From Micromonospora sp. R77 (GTDB lineage Bacteria > Actinomycetota > Actinomycetes > Mycobacteriales > Micromonosporaceae): DNA of 64,000 bases. How positions within the stretch are numbered: position 1 is the stretch's first letter; every line of letters starts with the position of its first letter. The position numbers were made by a program, and so were the translations under genes. The notes under the pieces are model-generated. The model saw only the letters and a list, made by a program, of their open reading frames with translations. It ran no database searches and was not told where the DNA came from. Of this stretch, positions 1,797 through 11,321 are shown piece by piece. Where the stretch lies: NCBI RefSeq assembly GCF_022747945.1, contig NZ_JALDST010000001.1, positions 1,302,001 through 1,366,000 on the forward strand, in the 5' to 3' direction.

Positions 1797-4028
1797 ATGG
1801 CGTACCTGATTCGCGTATCGTGCCCCCTCGTGTCATCCGTTCGGAACGGCCCCTCGGTGCCGCTGCCACCCGAGGACGAGGCGGTCGCCGACCCGTCCTG
1901 GGCCGACGACGGGCCCAGCCACCCGCACCACGACCCTCGCGAACTCGCCGCCCGTTTCGAGGACGAGAAACCGGGGCGCACGCTCTCCGGGCCGGTCGGG
2001 ATCGTCGTCACTGCGGCGACCGTGGGGATCGCGCTCCTCGCCCTCAGGCAGGTCTTCTTCCCGCTCGCCCAGGGCAGCAAGTACTACCTGATCATTTTCC
2101 TGGCCGGGGTGCTGCCGGTGGTGTTCCTGGCGTACCCGGCGGATCTGCCGATCCCCCGCCGGGCCCGCACGGAGGACCACACGGAGGGCCGCGCCGGGGA
2201 CCGCGCGCCGGCGGACGGTACGGCCGACCGGCCAGCCGGCGGGCCGACGGTGGTCGACTGGGTGCTGGCCGCCGCCGCCCTGGTCAGCTGCCTCTACCCG
2301 GTGCTGCCGGTCGCCCTCGGCTCCGGCGGCGGCGGGTACGACGCCTTCCTCGACCGGCAGGGCCTGCTGGTCCCGCTGGACGTGGCCATGGGCACGGTGC
2401 TGCTGCTCCTGCTGCTGGAGGCGTGCCGGCGCACCACCGGTTGGATCCTGCCCGCCGTCTGCCTGCTCTTCCTGGCCTACGGCTACTACGGCGGGCTGCT
2501 GCCGCAGTCCTGGCCGGTGGCCCACGCCGGGCTCGACTTCGACCAACTCGTCGACGCCTTCTACAACTCCGACAGTGGTTTCTACGGCACCCCGCTCGAC
2601 GTCGCCGCGTCGTACATCGTGCTCTTCACGATCTATGGTGCGGTGCTCGACCTCTCGGGCGCGGGCCGGTTCTTCGTGGAGCTCTCCGCCGCCGCCTTCC
2701 GGCGCTCCCGGACCGCCGCGGGCCGCACCGCCGTCGCCTCCGGCTTCCTGCTCGGCACCGTCTCCGGCTCGGGTGCCGCGACGACGGTGAGCATCGGGGC
2801 GGTCACCTGGCCCATTCTGCGCCGCGCCGGCTACCCGGCGGAACGGGCCGGCGGCATGCTGGCCGCCGCCGGCGTGGGCGCGATCCTCTCCCCGCCCACA
2901 CTGGGCGCGGCGGCCTTCATCATCGCCGAGTACCTCGGCGTCTCCTACCTCCAGGTGCTCGGCTGGGCGACCGTCCCGACGATCCTGTACTACCTGGGCA
3001 TCCTGCTCTCGGTGGAGATCGACGCCCGGCGCTCCGGGGTACGGCCGGTGGTGATCGACACCGGTTCGGCGTGGCGGCTGCTCGGCCGTTTCGGCTACCA
3101 CTTCCTCTCGCTGATCGTGATCGTCGTGGTGCTCGCGGTCGGCGCGTCCGCGACGAAGGCGGTGGTGATCGCCACCGTCCTCGCCGCGGCACTGTCGTTC
3201 CTGGACCGTCGGCACCGACTCACCCCCCGCCGGCTGGTCGCCGCGCTCGGCAACGGCGTACGCGGGGTGCTCGCGGTGAGCGCGGTCTGCGCGGCGGCGG
3301 GCATCATCACCGCGACGACCACCAAGACCGGGCTCGGCCCGCAGGCCGCCGCGCTGCTGGTCGGTGGGGCCCGGACGGTGAGCGCCGAACCGGCGGTGGT
3401 GCTCGCGCTCACCGCGCTCCTCGCCGCCGTCGCGCTGAGCCTGCTCGGGCTCGCCGTACCGGTCACCGCGTCCTTCGTGATCGGTTGGGTGATCATCGGG
3501 CCGGCGCTGCTCGACCTCGGCGTCGCCGCACCCGCCGCGGCCATGTTCGTCTTCTACTTCGCGGTGCTGTCCGAGGTCTCCCCACCGACCGCACTCGCCG
3601 CGGTGGCCGCCGCCGCGGTGACCGGCGGCCGGCTGGTGCCGACCATGTGGCAGACCCTGCGGTACGCGCTGCCCGCGTACCTCATCCCGATCGCCTTCGT
3701 CATCACCCCGGCCGGCCTGGGGTTGCTCGGCATCGGCGGCCCGGTGCGGATCGCGGTCGCCGGGGTGGTCGGGGCGCTCGGCGTCGCCGTGCTGGCCGTG
3801 GCCGCCGGCGGCTGGCTGCCCGGCGTAGGCCCGGCCGGCGTGCCGGAACGGCTGCTCGGCGCGTTCGCCGGGGTGACGCTGCTCTGGCTCGAACCCGTGC
3901 CCGTCGCCGTCGGCGCGCTCGCCGCCGCCGTGATGGTCGCGGGCGTGCTCGTACGACGCGGATCCGCCGGCCGGGCCGGCGGACCGTCGGCAGGACAACC
4001 GGTGCACCATGGGGAGGAGACACAGTGA
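1797..4028 (+). CDS. TRAP transporter fused permease subunit (TAXI-TRAP, 4TM/12TM)
   Basis: At up to 743 residues this is a fused DctQ/DctM membrane subunit of a TAXI-type TRAP transporter, a secondary importer that uses an ion gradient and a dedicated extracytoplasmic binding protein. Many hydrophobic helices are present, with DctM-type segments around residues 290-420 (a GTVSGSGAATTVSIG loop, then AAGVGAILSPPTLGAAAF) and 500-620 (VPVTASFVIGWV, FYFAVLSEVSPPTALA). The C-terminus is an extra hydrophobic stretch. The start is uncertain: ATG 1797 is the longest, and GTG at 1830 or 1857 would remove a poorly conserved hydrophilic leader. It overlaps the next gene by GTGA, so the two should be translated together. 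Confidence 0.9.
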   Translation: MAYLIRVSCPLVSSVRNGPSVPLPPEDEAVADPSWADDGPSHPHHDPRELAARFEDEKPGRTLSGPVGIVVTAATVGIALLALRQVFFPLAQGSKYYLIIFLAGVLPVVFLAYPADLPIPRRARTEDHTEGRAGDRAPADGTADRPAGGPTVVDWVLAAAALVSCLYPVLPVALGSGGGGYDAFLDRQGLLVPLDVAMGTVLLLLLLEACRRTTGWILPAVCLLFLAYGYYGGLLPQSWPVAHAGLDFDQLVDAFYNSDSGFYGTPLDVAASYIVLFTIYGAVLDLSGAGRFFVELSAAAFRRSRTAAGRTAVASGFLLGTVSGSGAATTVSIGAVTWPILRRAGYPAERAGGMLAAAGVGAILSPPTLGAAAFIIAEYLGVSYLQVLGWATVPTILYYLGILLSVEIDARRSGVRPVVIDTGSAWRLLGRFGYHFLSLIVIVVVLAVGASATKAVVIATVLAAALSFLDRRHRLTPRRLVAALGNGVRGVLAVSAVCAAAGIITATTTKTGLGPQAAALLVGGARTVSAEPAVVLALTALLAAVALSLLGLAVPVTASFVIGWVIIGPALLDLGVAAPAAAMFVFYFAVLSEVSPPTALAAVAAAAVTGGRLVPTMWQTLRYALPAYLIPIAFVITPAGLGLLGIGGPVRIAVAGVVGALGVAVLAVAAGGWLPGVGPAGVPERLLGAFAGVTLLWLEPVPVAVGALAAAVMVAGVLVRRGSAGRAGGPSAGQPVHHGEETQ

Positions 4029-5044
4029 GACGGATCAACGTGCGGATCGCCGCGGGCGCGGGTGTGCTGGCCCTCGTCGCGGCCGGCGCCGCCGGATGCG
4101 GGGGCCGTCAGGACGGCGCGGCCAAGGACGACGCCGCGAGCGAGATCACCTGCAAGGTCACCAAGGACACCCGGGTCGGCATCGCCACCGGCAACGCCAC
4201 CGGCGTCTACTACGTCGTCGGCAACGCCCTGGCCGGTCAGCTCTCCGGTGCCACCGGCGGCAAGCTCACCGGCACCGCCGCCGAGACCGGCGCCTCCGTG
4301 CAGAACATCGAACAGCTCGTCGGCGGCCAGTACGACGTCGCCTTCTCGCTCTTCGACACCGCGGTCAACGCGGTCCAGGGCAAGGGCAGCTTCACCGCGC
4401 CACAGCCGGTGGAGGCCCTCGCCCGGATCTACGACAACTACACCCAGGTCGTGGTCCGCTCCGACGCCGGCATCAGCTCGGTCGCCGACATGAAGGGCAA
4501 GAAGATCTCCACCGGCTCGCCCAAGTCCGGTACCGAGGTCATCGCCAACCGGCTGCTCACCGCCGCCGGCCTGGACCCGGCGAAGGACGTCCAGGCCCAA
4601 CGGCTGGACCTGGCGAAGACCGTGGACGGGATGAAGGACGGCAGCATCGACGGCTTCTTCTGGTCCGGCGGCGTCCCGACCGGCGGGGTGACCGACCTGT
4701 TCACCACCGCCGGCGACAAGGTGAAGTTCCTCGACATCAGCCCGCTGCTGCCGAAGATGACCGAGCTGAACCCCGCCTACCAGGCCGGGACCATCAAGTC
4801 GGACGTCTACCGGACGGCGGCGGACACCCCGACCATCGTGGTGCCGAACGTGCTGTTGGTCCGCAAGGACCTCGACGCCAACGTGGCCTGCGCGATCACC
4901 CGGACCGTCTTCGACAAGAAGGACGCGCTGGCCCAGGCGAACCCGGCCGCGAAGGGCATCGCCCTGGAGAACGCCCGCAAGACCGACCCGGTGCCGCTGC
5001 ACCGGGGCGCGGCGAAGGCGTTGCAGGACCTCGGCGCGAGCTGA
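4025..5044 (+). CDS. TAXI family TRAP transporter solute-binding lipoprotein
   Basis: This 339-residue protein is the binding partner of the TRAP permease just upstream. It starts at GTG 4025, overlapping the permease stop by 4 nt, with a GGGGAGGAGA ribosome site at 4011-4020. The N-terminus is a lipoprotein signal with a cleavage site at AAGC, about residue 23. TAXI-family landmarks are ATGNATGVYYVVG, SVQNIEQLVGGQYDVAFSL and STGSPKSGTEVIANRLL. TAXI proteins bind small acids such as glutamate or other carboxylates, but the ligand here cannot be read from sequence. It has a close paralogue at 7939-8910. Confidence 0.93.
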   Translation: MRRINVRIAAGAGVLALVAAGAAGCGGRQDGAAKDDAASEITCKVTKDTRVGIATGNATGVYYVVGNALAGQLSGATGGKLTGTAAETGASVQNIEQLVGGQYDVAFSLFDTAVNAVQGKGSFTAPQPVEALARIYDNYTQVVVRSDAGISSVADMKGKKISTGSPKSGTEVIANRLLTAAGLDPAKDVQAQRLDLAKTVDGMKDGSIDGFFWSGGVPTGGVTDLFTTAGDKVKFLDISPLLPKMTELNPAYQAGTIKSDVYRTAADTPTIVVPNVLLVRKDLDANVACAITRTVFDKKDALAQANPAAKGIALENARKTDPVPLHRGAAKALQDLGAS

Positions 5045-5050
5045 CCCAGC

Positions 5051-5085
5051 GGTGCCGGGCCCGGACAGACCCCGGGCCCGGCACC
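5051..5085 (+). terminator. GC-rich hairpin between TAXI gene and sensor kinase gene
   Basis: A 14-bp perfect stem (5051-5064 with 5072-5085, arms GGTGCCGGGCCCGG and its complement) closes a 7-nt loop just after the TAXI stop. There is no U-tract. It may end or attenuate transcription so that the downstream sensory genes are made in smaller amounts than the transporter. Confidence 0.6.
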
Positions 5086-5108
5086 TCCGACCCCCACCGG
5101 GAGACCCC

Positions 5109-7553
5109 GTGCCGCTCCCCGCACCCGCCCGCGTACGCCGGCACCACCGGCCGACGAACGCCACCGACCAGCTCCGGTCGGTCCGGACCCAGCTGCTCGC
5201 CCCGATCCTGGTGGCGACCGTCGGGCTGATCGTGCTGGGCGTCCCCCAGACCGGGACCGCCCTCGACGCGTCCGCCGACGCCGACCGGGCCCGGGTGCTG
5301 GCCGGTACCGCCACCGCCACCGTCCGCCTCGTGCACGAGCTGGAACGGGAACTCGGCGAGACGGCGGCCCTGCGTCAACGGGGCGGCACGTCCGGCCGGC
5401 CGCTGGTGGACGCGCAGCGCCTGCGGGTGGACACCGCCGTCGACCGGTACCGCTCGGCCAGCCGAGCGGCCCGTGGGGCGGCACCGGACCTGTCCCGGGT
5501 GCTGGAGGACGCGGACGGGCAGCTCGGCCGGCTCGACCCCACCAGGAACCTGGCGCTGGTCGCGGAGACCGCCGACCCCGCGTACGGGTCCATGGTGGAG
5601 TCGCTGCTGGCGGTGGCCGACGCGCTGCCGGCCCAGCTGCGCGACGCCGACCTGGCCAACGGGGCCCGCGAGGTGGCCGCGGTGGCGGCGCAGGAACACC
5701 TGGCCGCGCTGGAACGGGACCGGCTCCGCACCATCTTCGTGCGGGGCACCCTCGCCGCCGGGGACCTGACCCGGCTCGGTGAGCTGCGGGGCGCCCGGGA
5801 ACAGCGGCGGGCCGAGTTCTCCCGGATCGCCACCGGACCGGCCGCCGCAGCCTGGTCCCGCCTGGTGACCGGGCCCGACGTGACCGCCGCCGAGCGGCTG
5901 CGTGACGCCGCGCTCGCCGCCGAGAGCGCGCCGGCCGGGCTGCGGACCGACCCGGACGCCTGGTACGTCGCGCAGAGCGGGGCCATCCGCCGCTACAACC
6001 TGCTCGGCCGGGAACTCTCCGAGGACCTCGACCGGGACGCCGTCGAGCTGGCGCGTACCGCCCGGCAGCGGGCCCTGCTCACCGCCGGCGCGACCACCAC
6101 GGTCGCGCTCGCCTCGCTGCTCACCGCGATCCTGCTGGCGGTACGGACCAGCCGGCGGCTGCACCGGCTGCGGGTCGCCGCGCTCACCATGGCGCACCGG
6201 GAACTGCCGGAACGGATCACCGCGATCGCGGCCGGGGAGAGCGGCCCCGGCGAGGGCTCGGCGACCCGGATCACCGCCGGGATCCGCCGGGGCCGGGACG
6301 AGGTGGGACAGGTCGCCGAGGCGTTCGACACGGTGAACCGGGCCGCGCTGCGGCTGGCCGGTGAACAGGCCGAGCTGCGGCTGGACGTGACCCGGATGGC
6401 GGAGGCGCTGGCCCGGCGGATCCGTACGCTGATCACCCGCCAGCTGCGGCTGCTCGACGAGTTCGAACGGGAGGAGACCGACCCGGAGGCGCTGGCCCGG
6501 CTGTTCGCGCTGGACCACCTGGCCGCCCGGATGCGGCGCAACGGCGAGAACCTGCTGGTCCTGGCCGGCGGCGAGCCGGGACGCGGACACGAGGGCGCGC
6601 ACCTGCTCGCCGACGTGGTCCGGGCCGCCGCCGCCGAGATCGAGGAGTACCTCCGGGTGGAGGTGGCGGTGCCGCTGGCGGCGGTGCACGGCACGGCGGT
6701 GGGCAACCTGGTGCACCTGCTGGCCGAGTTGCTGGAGAACGCCACCCTCTACTCGCCGCCGCACACGCCGGTGCTGGTGGACGGTCGCCGTACCGTCGAC
6801 GGGCTCACGCTGCGCGTGCACGACCAGGGCATCGGCATCAGCGCCAGCCGGCTCGCCGTGATCAACGAGCGGCTGGCCGCGCCGGCCGTGCTCTCCAGCG
6901 CCGCCGCCGGCAGCATGGGGCTGCACGTGGTGGCCCACCTGGCGGCCCGGCTCGGGGTGCGGGTGCAGCTGCACGACACCGGCAGCGGCACGGTCGCCCA
7001 GGTGGAGGTGCCCGAGGCGGTGCTGACCCGGGTCGACTCGGTGTCCCGCAGTCCCGCCCCGGTCGGACGGCGTCCCGTCGCCGCCGCGGCGGCCCCCTGG
7101 TTCCGCCCCCGCGCCGAGGCCACCACGGGCCCGTCCACCGGTCCGGGGCCGTCCCGCGACCTGGTGGCCACCGCACCCGACCCGGGCAGCCTGCACCGGA
7201 CGGCCACCGTCACCCTGCCGCCCGGCGTACCGGCCGCGCGCACCGGCACGGTCCGGGGCACCGCCCGGGTGGCCGGTTCCCCGCCGGCCGGGCCGGCCCC
7301 GGCCGGTCACCCCGTCCCGACCGCCGGAACGCGCCCGCCGGCCGGGCCGGCTCCGGTCACCCAGGCCGGCCTGCCCCGCCGGACCCGGGGCGGTCAACTG
7401 CCCGCCCCGCTGCACGAGATGCCGCCGTCGCGGCCCACGGACGACCTGCTCGACCCCGAGGTGGTGCGGGCCCGGCTGTCCGCGCTCGCCGAGGGTGTCG
7501 CCACCGCGATGCGGCGTACCCCGCCCACCACACCACCCGGGAGATCCGAATGA
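5109..7553 (+). CDS. Sensor histidine kinase with NIT-type extracellular domain (CvnA-like)
   Basis: From GTG 5109, with a GGGAGA ribosome site 5 nt upstream, this encodes 814 residues. A first membrane helix (about residues 25-45) is followed by a roughly 270-residue helical extracellular region of the nitrate/nitrite-sensing (NIT) type, a second helix near 320-345, a HAMP linker, a dimerisation segment with LDHLAARMRRNGENLLVLAG-like sequence, and a HATPase domain with LAELLENATLYSPP and DQGIGIS near 540-620. The last 170 residues are Pro/Ala-rich and probably disordered. This is the architecture of conservon kinases (CvnA of Streptomyces). The gene overlaps the roadblock gene by ATGA. No response regulator is adjacent, which is usual for this group. 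Confidence 0.88.
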   Translation: MPLPAPARVRRHHRPTNATDQLRSVRTQLLAPILVATVGLIVLGVPQTGTALDASADADRARVLAGTATATVRLVHELERELGETAALRQRGGTSGRPLVDAQRLRVDTAVDRYRSASRAARGAAPDLSRVLEDADGQLGRLDPTRNLALVAETADPAYGSMVESLLAVADALPAQLRDADLANGAREVAAVAAQEHLAALERDRLRTIFVRGTLAAGDLTRLGELRGAREQRRAEFSRIATGPAAAAWSRLVTGPDVTAAERLRDAALAAESAPAGLRTDPDAWYVAQSGAIRRYNLLGRELSEDLDRDAVELARTARQRALLTAGATTTVALASLLTAILLAVRTSRRLHRLRVAALTMAHRELPERITAIAAGESGPGEGSATRITAGIRRGRDEVGQVAEAFDTVNRAALRLAGEQAELRLDVTRMAEALARRIRTLITRQLRLLDEFEREETDPEALARLFALDHLAARMRRNGENLLVLAGGEPGRGHEGAHLLADVVRAAAAEIEEYLRVEVAVPLAAVHGTAVGNLVHLLAELLENATLYSPPHTPVLVDGRRTVDGLTLRVHDQGIGISASRLAVINERLAAPAVLSSAAAGSMGLHVVAHLAARLGVRVQLHDTGSGTVAQVEVPEAVLTRVDSVSRSPAPVGRRPVAAAAAPWFRPRAEATTGPSTGPGPSRDLVATAPDPGSLHRTATVTLPPGVPAARTGTVRGTARVAGSPPAGPAPAGHPVPTAGTRPPAGPAPVTQAGLPRRTRGGQLPAPLHEMPPSRPTDDLLDPEVVRARLSALAEGVATAMRRTPPTTPPGRSE

Positions 7554-7942
7554 CCCCCTCCGTCAGCACCGGCCTCGACTGGCTCCTGGCGAACTTCGCC
7601 GAGCAGGTGCCGGACGTGTCGCACGCCCTGGCCGTCTCCGGCGACGGGCTGCGGCTGGCCGCGTCGCCCGATCTGTCGACCGACCAGGTCGACCAGCTCG
7701 CCGCCGTGATCAGCGGTCTGGCCAGCCTCACCGTGGGTGCCGCCCGGCTGATGTCGGCCGGCCGGGTACGCCAGCAGATCGTCGACATGGACGGCGGGGT
7801 GCTGCTGGTGATGGCGGTCGGCGAGCGGGCGCTGGTCGGGGTGCTCGCCGCGCCGGGCTGCGACCTCGGGCAGATCGGCTACGAGACGGCGATGCTCGTC
7901 CAGCGGGTGGCGGAGGCGCTGGAACCGGCGGTCCGGGCGTGA
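7550..7942 (+). CDS. Roadblock/LC7 domain protein (CvnB-like)
   Basis: This 130-residue protein matches the roadblock/LC7 fold found as CvnB in actinobacterial conservons, where it works with a membrane kinase and a Ras-like GTPase. Visible family features are LDWLLANFAEQVPDVSHALAVSGDGL and the central strand QQIVDMDGGVLLVMAVGE. The start ATG overlaps the kinase stop and its stop overlaps the GTG of the next gene, so all three are translationally coupled. The DUF742 (CvnC) and GTPase (CvnD) partners of a full conservon are absent here; a second TAXI binding protein takes their place. Confidence 0.88.
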   Translation: MTPSVSTGLDWLLANFAEQVPDVSHALAVSGDGLRLAASPDLSTDQVDQLAAVISGLASLTVGAARLMSAGRVRQQIVDMDGGVLLVMAVGERALVGVLAAPGCDLGQIGYETAMLVQRVAEALEPAVRA

Positions 7943-8910
7943 CGCGTCGCCCGTCGCGACTGCTGGCCGCCCTGCTGGTGGCCGTCCTCGCGGCGACCGG
8001 CTGCGGTGCACCGGACCGGGGGCCGCGGGCCTGGCACGAGGGCCGCATCTTCCTGGCCACCGGCAACACCACCGGCGTCTACTACCAGCTCGGCGGCGGC
8101 TACGCGGACGTGATCAGCCGGCACCTGCCCGGGTACGAGGCGCGGGCCGAGCCGACCGGTGCCTCGGTGGAGAACATCAACCGGCTGGTCAGCGGCGACA
8201 TGGAGATCGGCTTCAGCCTGGCCGACACGGCGGCGGACGCGATCGCCGGGCGCGGCGCGTTCGCCGGCCAGCCGCAGCCGGTCCGGGCGCTGGCCCGGGT
8301 CTACACCAACTACACCCACGTGATCGTGCGGAACGACGCGAAGATCAGGAACTTCGCCGAGCTGCGCGGCAAGCGGGTCTCCACCGGTTCCCCGAAGTCC
8401 GGCACGGACATCATCGCGGGGCGGCTGCTGACCGCGTCCGGGATGGACCCGGACCGGGACGTCCGGCGGTTCACGCTCTCCCTGCCGGAGACGGTCAAGC
8501 GGATGCGGGCAGGGACGCTGGACGCGATGTTCTTCTCCGGTGGCCTGCCCACCCCCGGCGTCAAGGACCTGCTCTCCAGCGCGCCCGGGAAGTTCCAGCT
8601 GCTGCCCGTCGCCGACCTGATCGACCCGCTCACCGCCCGCTACGGCTCGGTCTACACCACCGCGCCGCTGCCCAAGGAGGTCTACGGCACGGCGGTCGGC
8701 ACCCCCACGGTGACGGTGGCGAACGTGATCCTGGTGAACGCGGACATGCCCGAACAACTCGCGTACGACCTGACCCGGTTGCTCTTCACCTATCAGGGCG
8801 ACCTGGTCAAGGTGCACCCGGAGGGGGCGAACTTCACCCGGGAGAGCGGAGCGTTCACCGGACCGATCCCGCTGCACCCGGGCGCGGCCCGGTACTACAA
8901 GCGGTACTGA
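7939..8910 (+). CDS. Second TAXI-family solute-binding lipoprotein, linked to sensor kinase
   Basis: This 323-residue TAXI protein starts at GTG 7939 inside the roadblock stop (GTGA overlap). It has a lipoprotein signal with lipobox AATGC near residue 22, then ATGNTTGVYYQLGG, SVENINRLVSGDMEIGFSL and STGSPKSGTDIIAGRLL, closely parallel to the protein at 4025. It has no second TRAP permease of its own. Inference: it may share the upstream permease, or it may present ligand to the extracellular domain of the kinase with which it is co-translated. The next gene converges after only 3 bp. Confidence 0.9.
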   Translation: MTRRPSRLLAALLVAVLAATGCGAPDRGPRAWHEGRIFLATGNTTGVYYQLGGGYADVISRHLPGYEARAEPTGASVENINRLVSGDMEIGFSLADTAADAIAGRGAFAGQPQPVRALARVYTNYTHVIVRNDAKIRNFAELRGKRVSTGSPKSGTDIIAGRLLTASGMDPDRDVRRFTLSLPETVKRMRAGTLDAMFFSGGLPTPGVKDLLSSAPGKFQLLPVADLIDPLTARYGSVYTTAPLPKEVYGTAVGTPTVTVANVILVNADMPEQLAYDLTRLLFTYQGDLVKVHPEGANFTRESGAFTGPIPLHPGAARYYKRY

Positions 8911-8913
8911 GGC

Positions 8914-9450
8914 TCAGACGTCGGCGGGCGTGGTGGCGGTGCGGGCGGCGGCGACCAGCCGGTCGGTCTCGGCGGCCACCGCCTCGTCGTCGGCGGGCGT
9001 GCCCGGGTCGTAGCGGACCGTCCAGGTCAGCCCGTCGGCGCCGGGCACCCGGCGGGCCGCGATCCGGCCCGCGCCGCCGGGCACCGGGTGGTGTCGGGTG
9101 TACGCCACCGAGCGGGTCACCCGGGCGCGCACCTGGTGCGGCAGCTCGCCCGGGTCGAGCAGCAGGTAGGTCTCGGCCGGGCAGTCGGCGACCACCCGGT
9201 AGCCGTCGCGCTCCGCGACGGACTCGGCCGGGGTGACGCTGAGTTCGCGCCCGGACCAGACCGCCTTGAGGATGTCGTGCCAGCCGAGCCGGTCCGCCCG
9301 GCCGGGCAGCCAGAGCCCGAGGTTGCTGGCGACCACCACGCCGTCGCCCTCACCGTTGCCGGCGGCGGCCCAGGCCAGCACCCGCTCGTCGGCGCCGAGC
9401 GGCGGCCGGGCGGCGGGCGGCAGCTTCGGCCGGCGGTGGAACAGTCCCAT
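8914..9450 (-). CDS. Hypothetical protein, possible bacterial PH-like domain
   Basis: A 178-residue cytoplasmic protein with no signal peptide or membrane helix. The segment GDGVVVASNLGLWLPG followed by RLGWHDILKAVWSG resembles the start of bacterial PH-like domains, where a strand-rich segment is followed by a W-x-D/E-I turn; this is a weak structural guess. ATG 9450 sits inside the dnaG stop, with a GGAGGG ribosome site (GTG 9453 is one codon earlier), so it is translationally coupled to dnaG. Conserved neighbours of dnaG of this kind exist in actinomycetes, but I do not recognise a named function. Confidence 0.75.
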   Translation of the reverse strand: MGLFHRRPKLPPAARPPLGADERVLAWAAAGNGEGDGVVVASNLGLWLPGRADRLGWHDILKAVWSGRELSVTPAESVAERDGYRVVADCPAETYLLLDPGELPHQVRARVTRSVAYTRHHPVPGGAGRIAARRVPGADGLTWTVRYDPGTPADDEAVAAETDRLVAAARTATTPADV

Positions 9451-11321
9451 CACAGCCCTCCCGCAGCCTGATCGCCAAGTGCCCGCGCATGCTGCTCCAG
9501 CGAGAGCAGTTCCCCGAAGAGCGCGAAGTACTCGTCCTTGTTGCTGACCGGGTTCAGCCGTTGTAGCTTCGACTTGACTTCGCGGATACGGGCAGTTACT
9601 GAACCACGTTGGAGACGTGCCAACTGGATCGCGACGTACCTGGGGTCCGGTTCGCCGTCCAGGCGAAGGGGCTCGACCGAAAGCTCGCTTACCAGGGCTT
9701 GAGCTGCGAGGTCCTCACAGGCATCGCGAACCTTCTCGATCCAGACAGCACCACTCGTGCCGCCGGAGGCCCCACCGGCTGCGGCAATGGCGGTGCGCAC
9801 CGATGCGTGGAGCGGGTGGCGGTACTCAGCGGCTTCTACCGCATCAAACATCGGCCCAGCAAGGGCAGGCTCCTGGAGAGCAAGCTTCAGTGCTTCGCGC
9901 TCGACCCTAGATTGCGGGCTGTCGACCGTCGGCACGCTCTGACCGGTCCGCACGACCGGGGCTGCGCCCTTGCTGGGCGCTGCGGTCCCAGCGGCGCGCA
10001 CTGCCCGTTGCACCACATCAATTTCCATACCGAGAAGGTCCTCGGCGAGCCTACGGCCGTACCCCTCGCGCTTCTCACGGTCCTTGATACTGGCTACGAG
10101 CGGGGCAGCACGATGCATGGCTTCAACGCGGCCGTCGACAGTGTCGAGATTGAATCGACTGACAACGTGACGAAGTGCGAAATCGACAAGCGGTTCGCGG
10201 CGGGCGACCAGGTCGCGGACGGCCAGATCGCCCTTGGCCAGGCGCAGGTCGCAGGGATCCATGTTGTCCGGGCTGACCGCGATGAACGTACGCCCGACGA
10301 AGCGCTGGTCGTCCTCGAAGGCACGCAGCGCGGCCTTCTGCCCGGCCGCGTCCCCGTCGAAGGTGAAGATGATCTCCCCTGCTACCTCGTCGCTGTCAAA
10401 CAACAGCCGACGCAGGACAGCGATGTGGTCGGAGCCGAACGCCGTGCCGCAGGTCGCCACCGCGGTCGGCACCCCGGCCAGGTGGCAGGCCATCACGTCG
10501 GTGTAGCCCTCGACGACGACCACCTTGCCCTGCTTGGCGATCTCCCGCTTGGCCTGGTCGATGCCGTAGAGGACGTGCGACTTCTTGTAGATCGGCGTCT
10601 CGGGGGTGTTCAGGTATTTCGGGCCGTCGTCGTCGGCGAAGAGCTTGCGCGCGCCGAACCCGATCACGTCACCGGTGAGGTCGCGGATCGGCCACATCAG
10701 CCGGCGGCGGAACCGGTCGATCAGGGTGCCGGAGCGGGACGGCCGGGACAGCCCGCCGGTGACCAGCTCGTCGTGGGTGAAGCCCTGCTGGCGCAGGTGC
10801 TTGGTGAGCAGGTCCCAGGCGTCGGGCGCGAACCCGCAGCCGTAGCGCTCGGCGGCGGCCCGGTCGAAGCCGCGCTGGGCGAGGAACTCCCGGGCCGGGC
10901 GGGCACCGGCGGTGCCGAGCTGGGCCCGGTAGAACTCGACGGCGGCGGCGTGCGCGGCCACCAGCCGCTGCCGCTGCCCCTGCTGCGGCCGGGTACGCGG
11001 CGCGGCGGTGTCGTTCTCCACGTACCGCAGCTGGATGCCGGCGCGGGCGGCGAGCCGCTCGACGGACTCCACGAAGCTCAGGTGCTCGGCGTCCATCAGG
11101 AACTTGATCGCGTCGCCGCCGGCCCCGCAGCCGAAGCAGTACCACACGTTGCGGGCGGGCGAGACGTTGAACGACGGGCTCTTCTCGTCGTGGAACGGGC
11201 AGAGCCCCTTGAGGTTGCCGCCGCCGGCCGACTTCAGGGTGACCGTGTCGGAGATGACCTCCGCGATGGAGGTGCGCTCGCGGACCAGCGCGATGTCCTC
11301 GTCCCGGATCCGCCCCGCCAT
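9450..11321 (-). CDS. dnaG: DNA primase
   Basis: This 623-residue DnaG makes RNA primers for replication. The N-terminal zinc ribbon is clear: CPFHDEKSPSF and YCFGCGAGGDAI within the first 70 residues. It is followed by the primase core and a TOPRIM domain with VVVEGYTDVMACH near residue 270 and FTFDGDAAGQKA near 320, then a C-terminal helicase-binding region ending near GDQAAGGL. The start ATG 11321 has a strong GGAGGTGG site 8 nt upstream. Base composition is uneven: hand counts give 53% G+C at 10141-10200 but 77% at 10801-10860, so the 3' half looks acquired or recombined. The position beside dgt matches the mycobacterial order. Confidence 0.97.
   Translation of the reverse strand: MAGRIRDEDIALVRERTSIAEVISDTVTLKSAGGGNLKGLCPFHDEKSPSFNVSPARNVWYCFGCGAGGDAIKFLMDAEHLSFVESVERLAARAGIQLRYVENDTAAPRTRPQQGQRQRLVAAHAAAVEFYRAQLGTAGARPAREFLAQRGFDRAAAERYGCGFAPDAWDLLTKHLRQQGFTHDELVTGGLSRPSRSGTLIDRFRRRLMWPIRDLTGDVIGFGARKLFADDDGPKYLNTPETPIYKKSHVLYGIDQAKREIAKQGKVVVVEGYTDVMACHLAGVPTAVATCGTAFGSDHIAVLRRLLFDSDEVAGEIIFTFDGDAAGQKAALRAFEDDQRFVGRTFIAVSPDNMDPCDLRLAKGDLAVRDLVARREPLVDFALRHVVSRFNLDTVDGRVEAMHRAAPLVASIKDREKREGYGRRLAEDLLGMEIDVVQRAVRAAGTAAPSKGAAPVVRTGQSVPTVDSPQSRVEREALKLALQEPALAGPMFDAVEAAEYRHPLHASVRTAIAAAGGASGGTSGAVWIEKVRDACEDLAAQALVSELSVEPLRLDGEPDPRYVAIQLARLQRGSVTARIREVKSKLQRLNPVSNKDEYFALFGELLSLEQHARALGDQAAGGL

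Follow-up and report, generated by a model that had tools for sequence, protein, structure and literature searches.

A conserved kinase-roadblock-TAXI gene cassette in Micromonosporaceae with a predicted extracytoplasmic ligand sensor

A three-gene cassette is encoded on the plus strand (5109-8910) of a 64,000-nucleotide (nt) stretch of the 7.1 Mb genome of Micromonospora sp. R77, hereafter the window. It codes for a conservon-type histidine kinase, a roadblock protein and a second solute-binding protein of the TAXI family, TAXI2 (together K-R-T). Directly upstream are a fused TAXI-TRAP permease and its own binding protein, TAXI1. With a probability of roughly 0.7, the three genes form a conserved cassette in which TAXI2 is the predicted extracytoplasmic ligand sensor of the kinase. 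The genes are conserved as a unit, the unit occurs in genomes without a detectable TRAP permease, TAXI2 has a lipobox and the kinase has lost the nitrate motif of its ectodomain family. Since K-R-T is often present without a matching uptake pump, TAXI2 likely is the nutrient detector of the sensor and not part of a pump. The sensing cassette is real and recurrent and, as far as searches of the open-licence literature reach, undescribed.

Conservation of the cassette

The family was surveyed in 200 genomes with a TAXI2 ortholog cut-off of 294 bits; loci L023, L068, L143, L144 and L147 repeat other loci and were left out before counting. TAXI2 orthologs reached the cut-off in 60 genomes, the R77 genome included. 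In 59 of them (58 of the other 59), the kinase and roadblock genes are located directly upstream on the same strand and in the same order. The lone exception is a 5'-truncated TAXI2 (L105 in genome G175, 2240-3037), with no kinase or roadblock gene within the 6 kb examined. K-R-T was found in 13 genera and its flanking genes differ between genera. The neighbourhood noticed in the initial annotation is thus recurrent and not a feature of one strain.

The search with the kinase ectodomain, in the same 200 genomes, gave the converse. The scores were two-peaked, with 57 genomes at 185 bits or more, and 56 of these 57 have TAXI2. In the exception, G063, the contig ends inside the kinase gene (L191). 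Three more K-R-T genomes (G039, G080 and G094) appeared as split ectodomain alignments. Below 185 bits, seven genomes with Trk-linked kinases (75-162 bits) and one match in G095 were followed by a remainder at about 60 bits and less. The G095 match is a second K-R-T-like ectodomain (129 bits; L192, G095:C20:31619-32644), at which gene calling finds no kinase gene. The neighbourhood counts of 59/60 and 56/57 place the layout beyond chance.

Overlapping reading frames were common in the 58 gene-called sets. A 4 nt overlap joins the kinase gene to the roadblock gene in 32 sets and the roadblock gene to TAXI2 in 33; in seven further sets, the latter two share 7 nt. Loci L087, L091 and L105 were left out of these sets or of the mirror-tree sets. 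At L077 and L091, the contig ends inside the kinase gene and the ectodomain was found on another contig of each genome. A 1257-amino-acid frame at L087 was rejected as a kinase-TAXI fusion. It encloses the roadblock gene, which is read in a different frame, and we take the long frame as a chance read-through of GC-rich DNA. At L093 (G150, 3973-6377), the kinase matches fall in two frames, due to a frameshift or a sequencing error. The entire locus occurs in two oppositely oriented copies with identical gene calls on one contig of Micromonospora chalcea DSM 43026 (L022 and L023), either an inverted duplication or an assembly artefact.

Beyond the family, an ectodomain search of 394 genomes of the class gave matches in 90, the best outside the family with 69.3 bits. 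K-R-T was absent from all 40 class-level contexts, which were picked from the better-scoring matches of a 394-genome search and are not a random draw. The cassette is therefore confined to the family in this sample.

The kinase and its NIT domain

The kinase (5109-7553, plus strand) combines an extracytoplasmic NIT domain (PF08376, 109 bits) with a HATPase domain (PF02518). His470, Asn544, Gly574 and Gly576 are invariant in 16 aligned rows. His470 is presumably the phosphoacceptor, and we take Asn544 to represent the N box and the two glycines the G box. The ectodomain matches NasR (4akk) with an E value of 1.6e-11 and belongs to the NIT fold family.

For nitrate sensors of the NIT kind, a G-x-x-R motif is reported in the motif description of PMC8199190, with a glutamine in place of one glycine in NasR. 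The position of the motif in helix 1 was read from the alignment of the ectodomain with 4akk, which has Q-C-E-R there. None of the 56 K-R-T kinases has the motif (G/Q-x-x-R) at this position. They carry E-x-E instead, followed by Leu, Val or Ile in 50 of the 56. The complete conservon of the R77 genome has a kinase with Q-D-E-R, and other NIT kinases drawn from R77, its family and its class retain the arginine in ten rows (nine genes). In three other rows of that comparison (two genes), a nearby Q-x-E-R is displaced in the alignment, so that an alanine occupies the column; one row is gapped and nine further rows of K-R-T and Trk-linked kinases lack the arginine.

TAXI2 as a putative sensory subunit

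TAXI2 (7939-8910, plus strand) matches TIGR02122 with 250.7 bits, over the cut-off, and has seven solved relatives of the TAXI fold at E values of 0.001 or better. It is predicted to be lipid-anchored by a lipobox (ATGC) that ends at residue 22. The lipobox pattern is present in 56 of the 58 gene-called sets, and the other two are probable start miscalls.

The account of VcGluP in PMC11574862 includes Y45, S75, Q93, E125, D157, Y200 and M201 as glutamate-site positions. These were transferred via the alignment with the structure relatives, in which chain 8s4j, not named as such, was taken as VcGluP since its numbering fits. TAXI1 of the family (41 rows) has Y, S, L, N, T, W and S at the seven sites (W in 40 rows, F in one). 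TAXI2 of Micromonospora (21 rows) has Y, S, L, N, T, F and S. Six of the seven positions are thus equal and five are unlike the glutamate site. Judged from these residues, TAXI1 and TAXI2 of Micromonospora likely bind the same kind of solute, which is probably not glutamate.

In the proposed mechanism, TAXI2 would be tethered at the outer face of the membrane and close on its ligand. The ligand-bound protein may then dock on the NIT ectodomain, which would have given up nitrate reception to serve as a docking platform, and docking would change the activity of the kinase. From there, the signal would travel via the roadblock protein to an output whose gene lies outside the operon, perhaps the CvnD-type GTPase of another conservon. 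The output is placed elsewhere because the operon has no gene for a GTPase, a DUF742 protein or a response regulator. In Micromonospora, where the cassette is mostly located behind permease and TAXI1, the solute read by TAXI2 may be that of TAXI1 or one like it, and the cell would sense its import.

The evolutionary path we lean towards, by a small degree, is that of a TAXI-based receptor. The binding protein of a transporter would have been duplicated, freed from transport and made to serve a conservon-type kinase as its lipid-anchored sensory subunit, with the NIT domain losing its nitrate pocket to become the docking platform. A quick TAXI tree needed one label change for the 59 TAXI2 rows, with a Shimodaira-Hasegawa-like approximate likelihood ratio test (SH-aLRT) value of 88, and placed them beside permease-linked TAXI proteins. 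In a careful tree, thinned of near-copies to 114 rows, the TAXI2 grouping was weakly supported (39/79), with 33 of 35 rows grouped at 90/91, and 35% of the bootstrap trees needed one change. The suggested single origin of TAXI2 is weakened.

TAXI genes also occur beside two-component systems. In 22 of the 40 class-level contexts, a TAXI gene is located within about 2 kb of a histidine kinase-response regulator pair, mostly without a permease; nine of these 22 are also near a TAXI-permease pair. The corresponding TAXI proteins form another clade in the careful tree (20 rows plus one, 100/99). The R77 genome has such a third TAXI gene (L019, 7026-10052; C1, about 4825525-4828551), tail to tail with genes for an OmpR-type response regulator and a HisKA sensor kinase and with no permease beside it. 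If K-R-T is a TAXI-based receptor, then TAXI proteins have been recruited at least twice as dedicated sensors across the Actinomycetes, and extracellular solute-binding proteins can drive conservon-type signalling. A kinase with a dedicated binding protein would be a purifiable ligand receptor and would offer a direct route to the input of conservon signalling.

Co-inheritance and the Trk-linked sister kinases

Several findings weigh against a sensory role of TAXI2. Its contact with the kinase is a proposed one, and shared inheritance in one operon could explain the linkage without any contact. The strongest point is that the kinase-roadblock pair can persist without TAXI. In the kinase tree, a branch with an SH-aLRT value of 99 splits off the 58 K-R-T kinases, which adjoin the seven Trk-linked kinases; this tree has few outgroup rows because a motif filter dropped several conservon-type kinases, and L077 was left out for length. 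Two of the Trk-linked genomes have the order TrkH-TrkA-kinase-roadblock-TAXI (L188, L189). Five genomes of genus g4 have TrkH-TrkA-kinase-roadblock and no TAXI (L190, L193-L196), and a genome-wide search found no TAXI match in them. The Trk genes were identified by Pfam in L188 (TrkH and TrkA) and L190 (TrkH) and by likeness in the others. In the careful TAXI tree, the TAXI proteins of the two Trk-linked genomes fall outside the K-R-T group, on a long branch. The Trk-linked kinases of the TAXI-free genomes also lack the nitrate arginine. Loss of the motif is thus older than the TAXI link or independent of it and does not by itself imply TAXI input.

Further points come from TAXI2 itself. Over all 59 K-R-T rows, the ligand-site residues vary between genera (in the Q93 column, L in 29 rows, F in 19, others in the remainder), so the ligand probably differs between genera. 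In a mirror-tree analysis of 56 rows, the partial correlation of TAXI2 was 0.60 with the ectodomain and 0.45 with the cytoplasmic part of the kinase. With 20 thinned rows, the values were 0.33 and 0.44, and the ectodomain is not singled out.

Co-inheritance alone would make TAXI2 an orphan binding protein, with the kinase sensing something else via its NIT domain. The g4 genomes and the thinned mirror-tree values are in line with this. It is unlikely in view of the co-occurrence in both directions across 13 genera, which holds while the flanking genes differ between genera. The gene overlaps in most sets, the loss of the cassette as a block (see below) and the lost nitrate motif also speak against mere co-inheritance.

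Link to the TRAP permease

The permease-TAXI1 pair is located beside K-R-T in 23 of 58 decidable loci. In 22 it lies upstream on the same strand and in one it is divergent (L078). It is absent next to the cassette in 35 loci, and L091 is undecided (59 loci in total, that of R77 included). Two of the 35 (L077, L107) end at contig ends, and these genomes have no permease match anywhere. Conversely, neither kinase nor roadblock gene occurs at 18 other permease-TAXI1 loci (L127-L142, L145, L146). In three of these, all from Micromonospora (L135-L137), permease and TAXI1 genes are followed after 22-26 nt by the gene found downstream of TAXI2 in the window. The K-R-T cassette is thus missing as a block there; it was gained or lost as a block.

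Genome-wide searches gave the same picture. A match to this permease is missing in 25 of the 39 K-R-T genomes outside Micromonospora. In 22 of those 25, there is no DctM match at all; other carrier families, for example GltS, were not searched for. The control DctM search was positive in seven of 14 genomes. Among the 22 DctM-free genomes are G071 and G080 with one contig each and G009 and G133 with four contigs each, listed as 100% complete. As 35 loci stand apart from the permease and 22 of the 39 genomes have no DctM-type permease, TAXI2 is not generally a TRAP subunit. In those 22 genomes, the automatic name of TAXI2, a TRAP subunit, is misleading, and pairing with a second TRAP permease elsewhere in the genome, a possibility raised by the initial annotation, finds no partner. 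The same annotation saw a transporter-coupled signalling module. The recurrent signalling unit stands, but the coupling does not hold in general; the sensing unit is not intrinsically transporter-coupled and its link to a transporter is optional.

These data also bear on TAXI2 as a second or alternative binding protein that serves the TRAP permease upstream of it or some other carrier, with kinase and roadblock protein regulating the operon without TAXI2. Besides the annotation as a TRAP subunit, this would explain the permease genes directly upstream in 22 of 59 K-R-T loci (and divergent in one) and the match of the TAXI2 ligand-site residues with those of TAXI1 in Micromonospora. It is quite unlikely, given the 35 loci without a permease next door, the 25 of 39 genomes without a match to this permease, 22 of them without a DctM match, and the absence of kinase and roadblock genes from all 18 other permease-TAXI1 loci.

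Relation to conservons

The roadblock protein (7550-7942, plus strand) is CvnB-like (PF03259, 67.8 bits; alignment of 14). Its relatives match CvnB of the complete conservon in the R77 genome at 53-60%. The kinase matches CvnA of this conservon, with relatives at about 33%. Together with the Pfam domains, this bears out the earlier view of the two genes as the CvnA/CvnB half of a conservon lacking the DUF742 and Ras-like GTPase genes. No CvnC (DUF742) gene is part of the operon and no CvnD Ras-like GTPase is encoded among its five genes. In K-R-T contexts, both occur only at L112 and L197 of genus g33, where a complete conservon A-B-C-D is located directly upstream of the K-R-T kinase. This separate conservon may supply the C and D partners that K-R-T lacks. 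Among the seven NIT kinases encoded in the R77 genome, a DUF742 match occurs within 4 kb of five, but not of the K-R-T kinase.

Two other conservon neighbourhoods were observed. A complete conservon of the R77 genome (L021, 1573-8044) faces a convergent Peripla_BP_6 lipoprotein-like gene (6818-8044, minus strand), a further case of a binding protein next to a conservon, which was not seen beside the relative in L201. At L198 and L202, pairs of CvnA and CvnB genes only adjoin a sugar-kinase-like gene, another type of half-conservon.

A decaying conservon would also resemble CvnA and CvnB (about 33% and 55%) and lack the C and D genes, and TAXI2 would be a chance neighbour. This is very improbable, as 13 genera retain the set and the kinase motifs are invariant in the 16 aligned rows. 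In the tree, full support separates the K-R-T and Trk-linked kinases from the CvnA rows, of which only a few were included, so the lineage is an old one. A kinase working with potassium (Trk) or the osmotic response, with TAXI2 as a secondary input added in part of the lineage, would suit the sister clade, in which every one of the seven genomes has TrkH-TrkA next to the kinase, two of them with TAXI and five lacking it. It is hardly credible, since the neighbours listed for K-R-T loci include no gene recognised as Trk, in a survey made without a Trk profile search.

Gene organisation and the intercistronic hairpin

The five genes of the locus (1797-8910) are all on the plus strand. Profile matches confirmed the gene set of the initial annotation, and the GTGA and ATGA overlaps that it reported are present at 4025-4028 (GTGA), 7550-7553 (ATGA) and 7939-7942 (GTGA). 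The fused permease (1797-4028) matches TIGR02123 with 392 bits, over the cut-off, and PF06808 with 182.8 bits. TAXI1 (4025-5044) matches TIGR02122 with 257.5 bits; its lipobox-like Cys25 is invariant in seven aligned rows. The kinase most likely starts with GTG at 5109, preceded by GGGAG at 5099-5103; an alternative start at 5052 falls within the hairpin described below. Both flanking genes, an ABC gene at 551-1483 and a gene at 8914-9453 for which no family was found, are on the minus strand. The operon therefore consists of the five genes, and no DUF742 or Ras-like GTPase gene belongs to it. The five genes form two separable units, permease-TAXI1 and K-R-T. A frame at 3-362 on the minus strand, cut by the window start, presumably belongs to an IS110-type transposase.

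Transport and sensing units are separated by a GC hairpin of 14 pairs behind TAXI1 (5051-5085, plus strand). The space from the end of TAXI1 to the kinase start is only 64 nt. The stretch 5040-5110 folds with -45.7 kcal/mol (z -5.3). The hairpin is kept in 16 Micromonospora loci, the alignment comprising 16 of 18 without L098 and L100, with compensatory changes at eight of the 14 pairs. Shuffles gave a mean of 4.4 such pairs and none of 500 reached eight. In a second control, the signal was lost once the partner was slid. The hairpin was first described as terminator-like. It is real and conserved, but termination is not supported because a T tract is missing and a terminator scan gave no match; the hairpin was rejected as a proven terminator. 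It may be an intercistronic element that tunes expression inside a single transcript.

Comparison with known systems

Searches of the open-licence literature found no description of a pairing of TAXI with a conservon, TAXI with a histidine kinase or a conservon with a solute-binding protein, in agreement with the earlier impression of a layout without precedent. Nor did papers on TAXI proteins with two-component systems, judged by titles and opening lines of abstracts, deal with a pairing of this kind. The nearest systems share single features with K-R-T. Conservons (CvnA-B-C-D), or actinobacterial G protein systems (AGPS), share the CvnA-like kinase with NIT and HATPase domains followed by a CvnB-like roadblock gene. 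Their signal path is called poorly understood in PMC13343842. The accessory-gene counts in that work cover CvnE (P450) or CvnF (GAF) types only, which occur with kinases lacking a sensory domain. K-R-T differs by the absence of CvnC and CvnD and by an extracytoplasmic TAXI protein instead of a cytoplasmic CvnE or CvnF accessory. Unlike the kinases of CvnE/CvnF conservons, its kinase has a NIT domain, but without the nitrate motif.

Binding proteins acting on kinases are known from about ten characterised cases, by the count given in PMC9602780. Among these, BctC, a binding protein of the TctC family, activates the kinase BctE. As proposed for TAXI2, the sensor kinase receives its input from a binding protein that belongs to a class of secondary transporters. 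By the description in PMC9602780, BctC works for its own transporter as well and BctE belongs to an ordinary two-component system, whereas TAXI2 often occurs without a TRAP permease and the K-R-T kinase is of the conservon type with no response regulator beside it.

The permease and TAXI1 are a TAXI-TRAP pair of the kind described for VcGluP-VcGluQM (PMC11574862), and TAXI2 belongs to the same fold family. It differs from VcGluP at five of the seven glutamate-site positions listed there, and the TAXI2 clade has no fixed link with a permease. TAXI-GltS of Bordetella, as presented in PMC12344293, is likewise a TAXI protein away from TRAP permeases. Its partner is a glutamate symporter, whereas TAXI2 is linked to a kinase and a roadblock protein. 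The TAXI genes beside OmpR-type two-component pairs, as at L019 and in the 22 class-level contexts, share the position next to a sensor kinase. They are accompanied by an ordinary HisKA kinase and a response regulator and encode a different TAXI clade.

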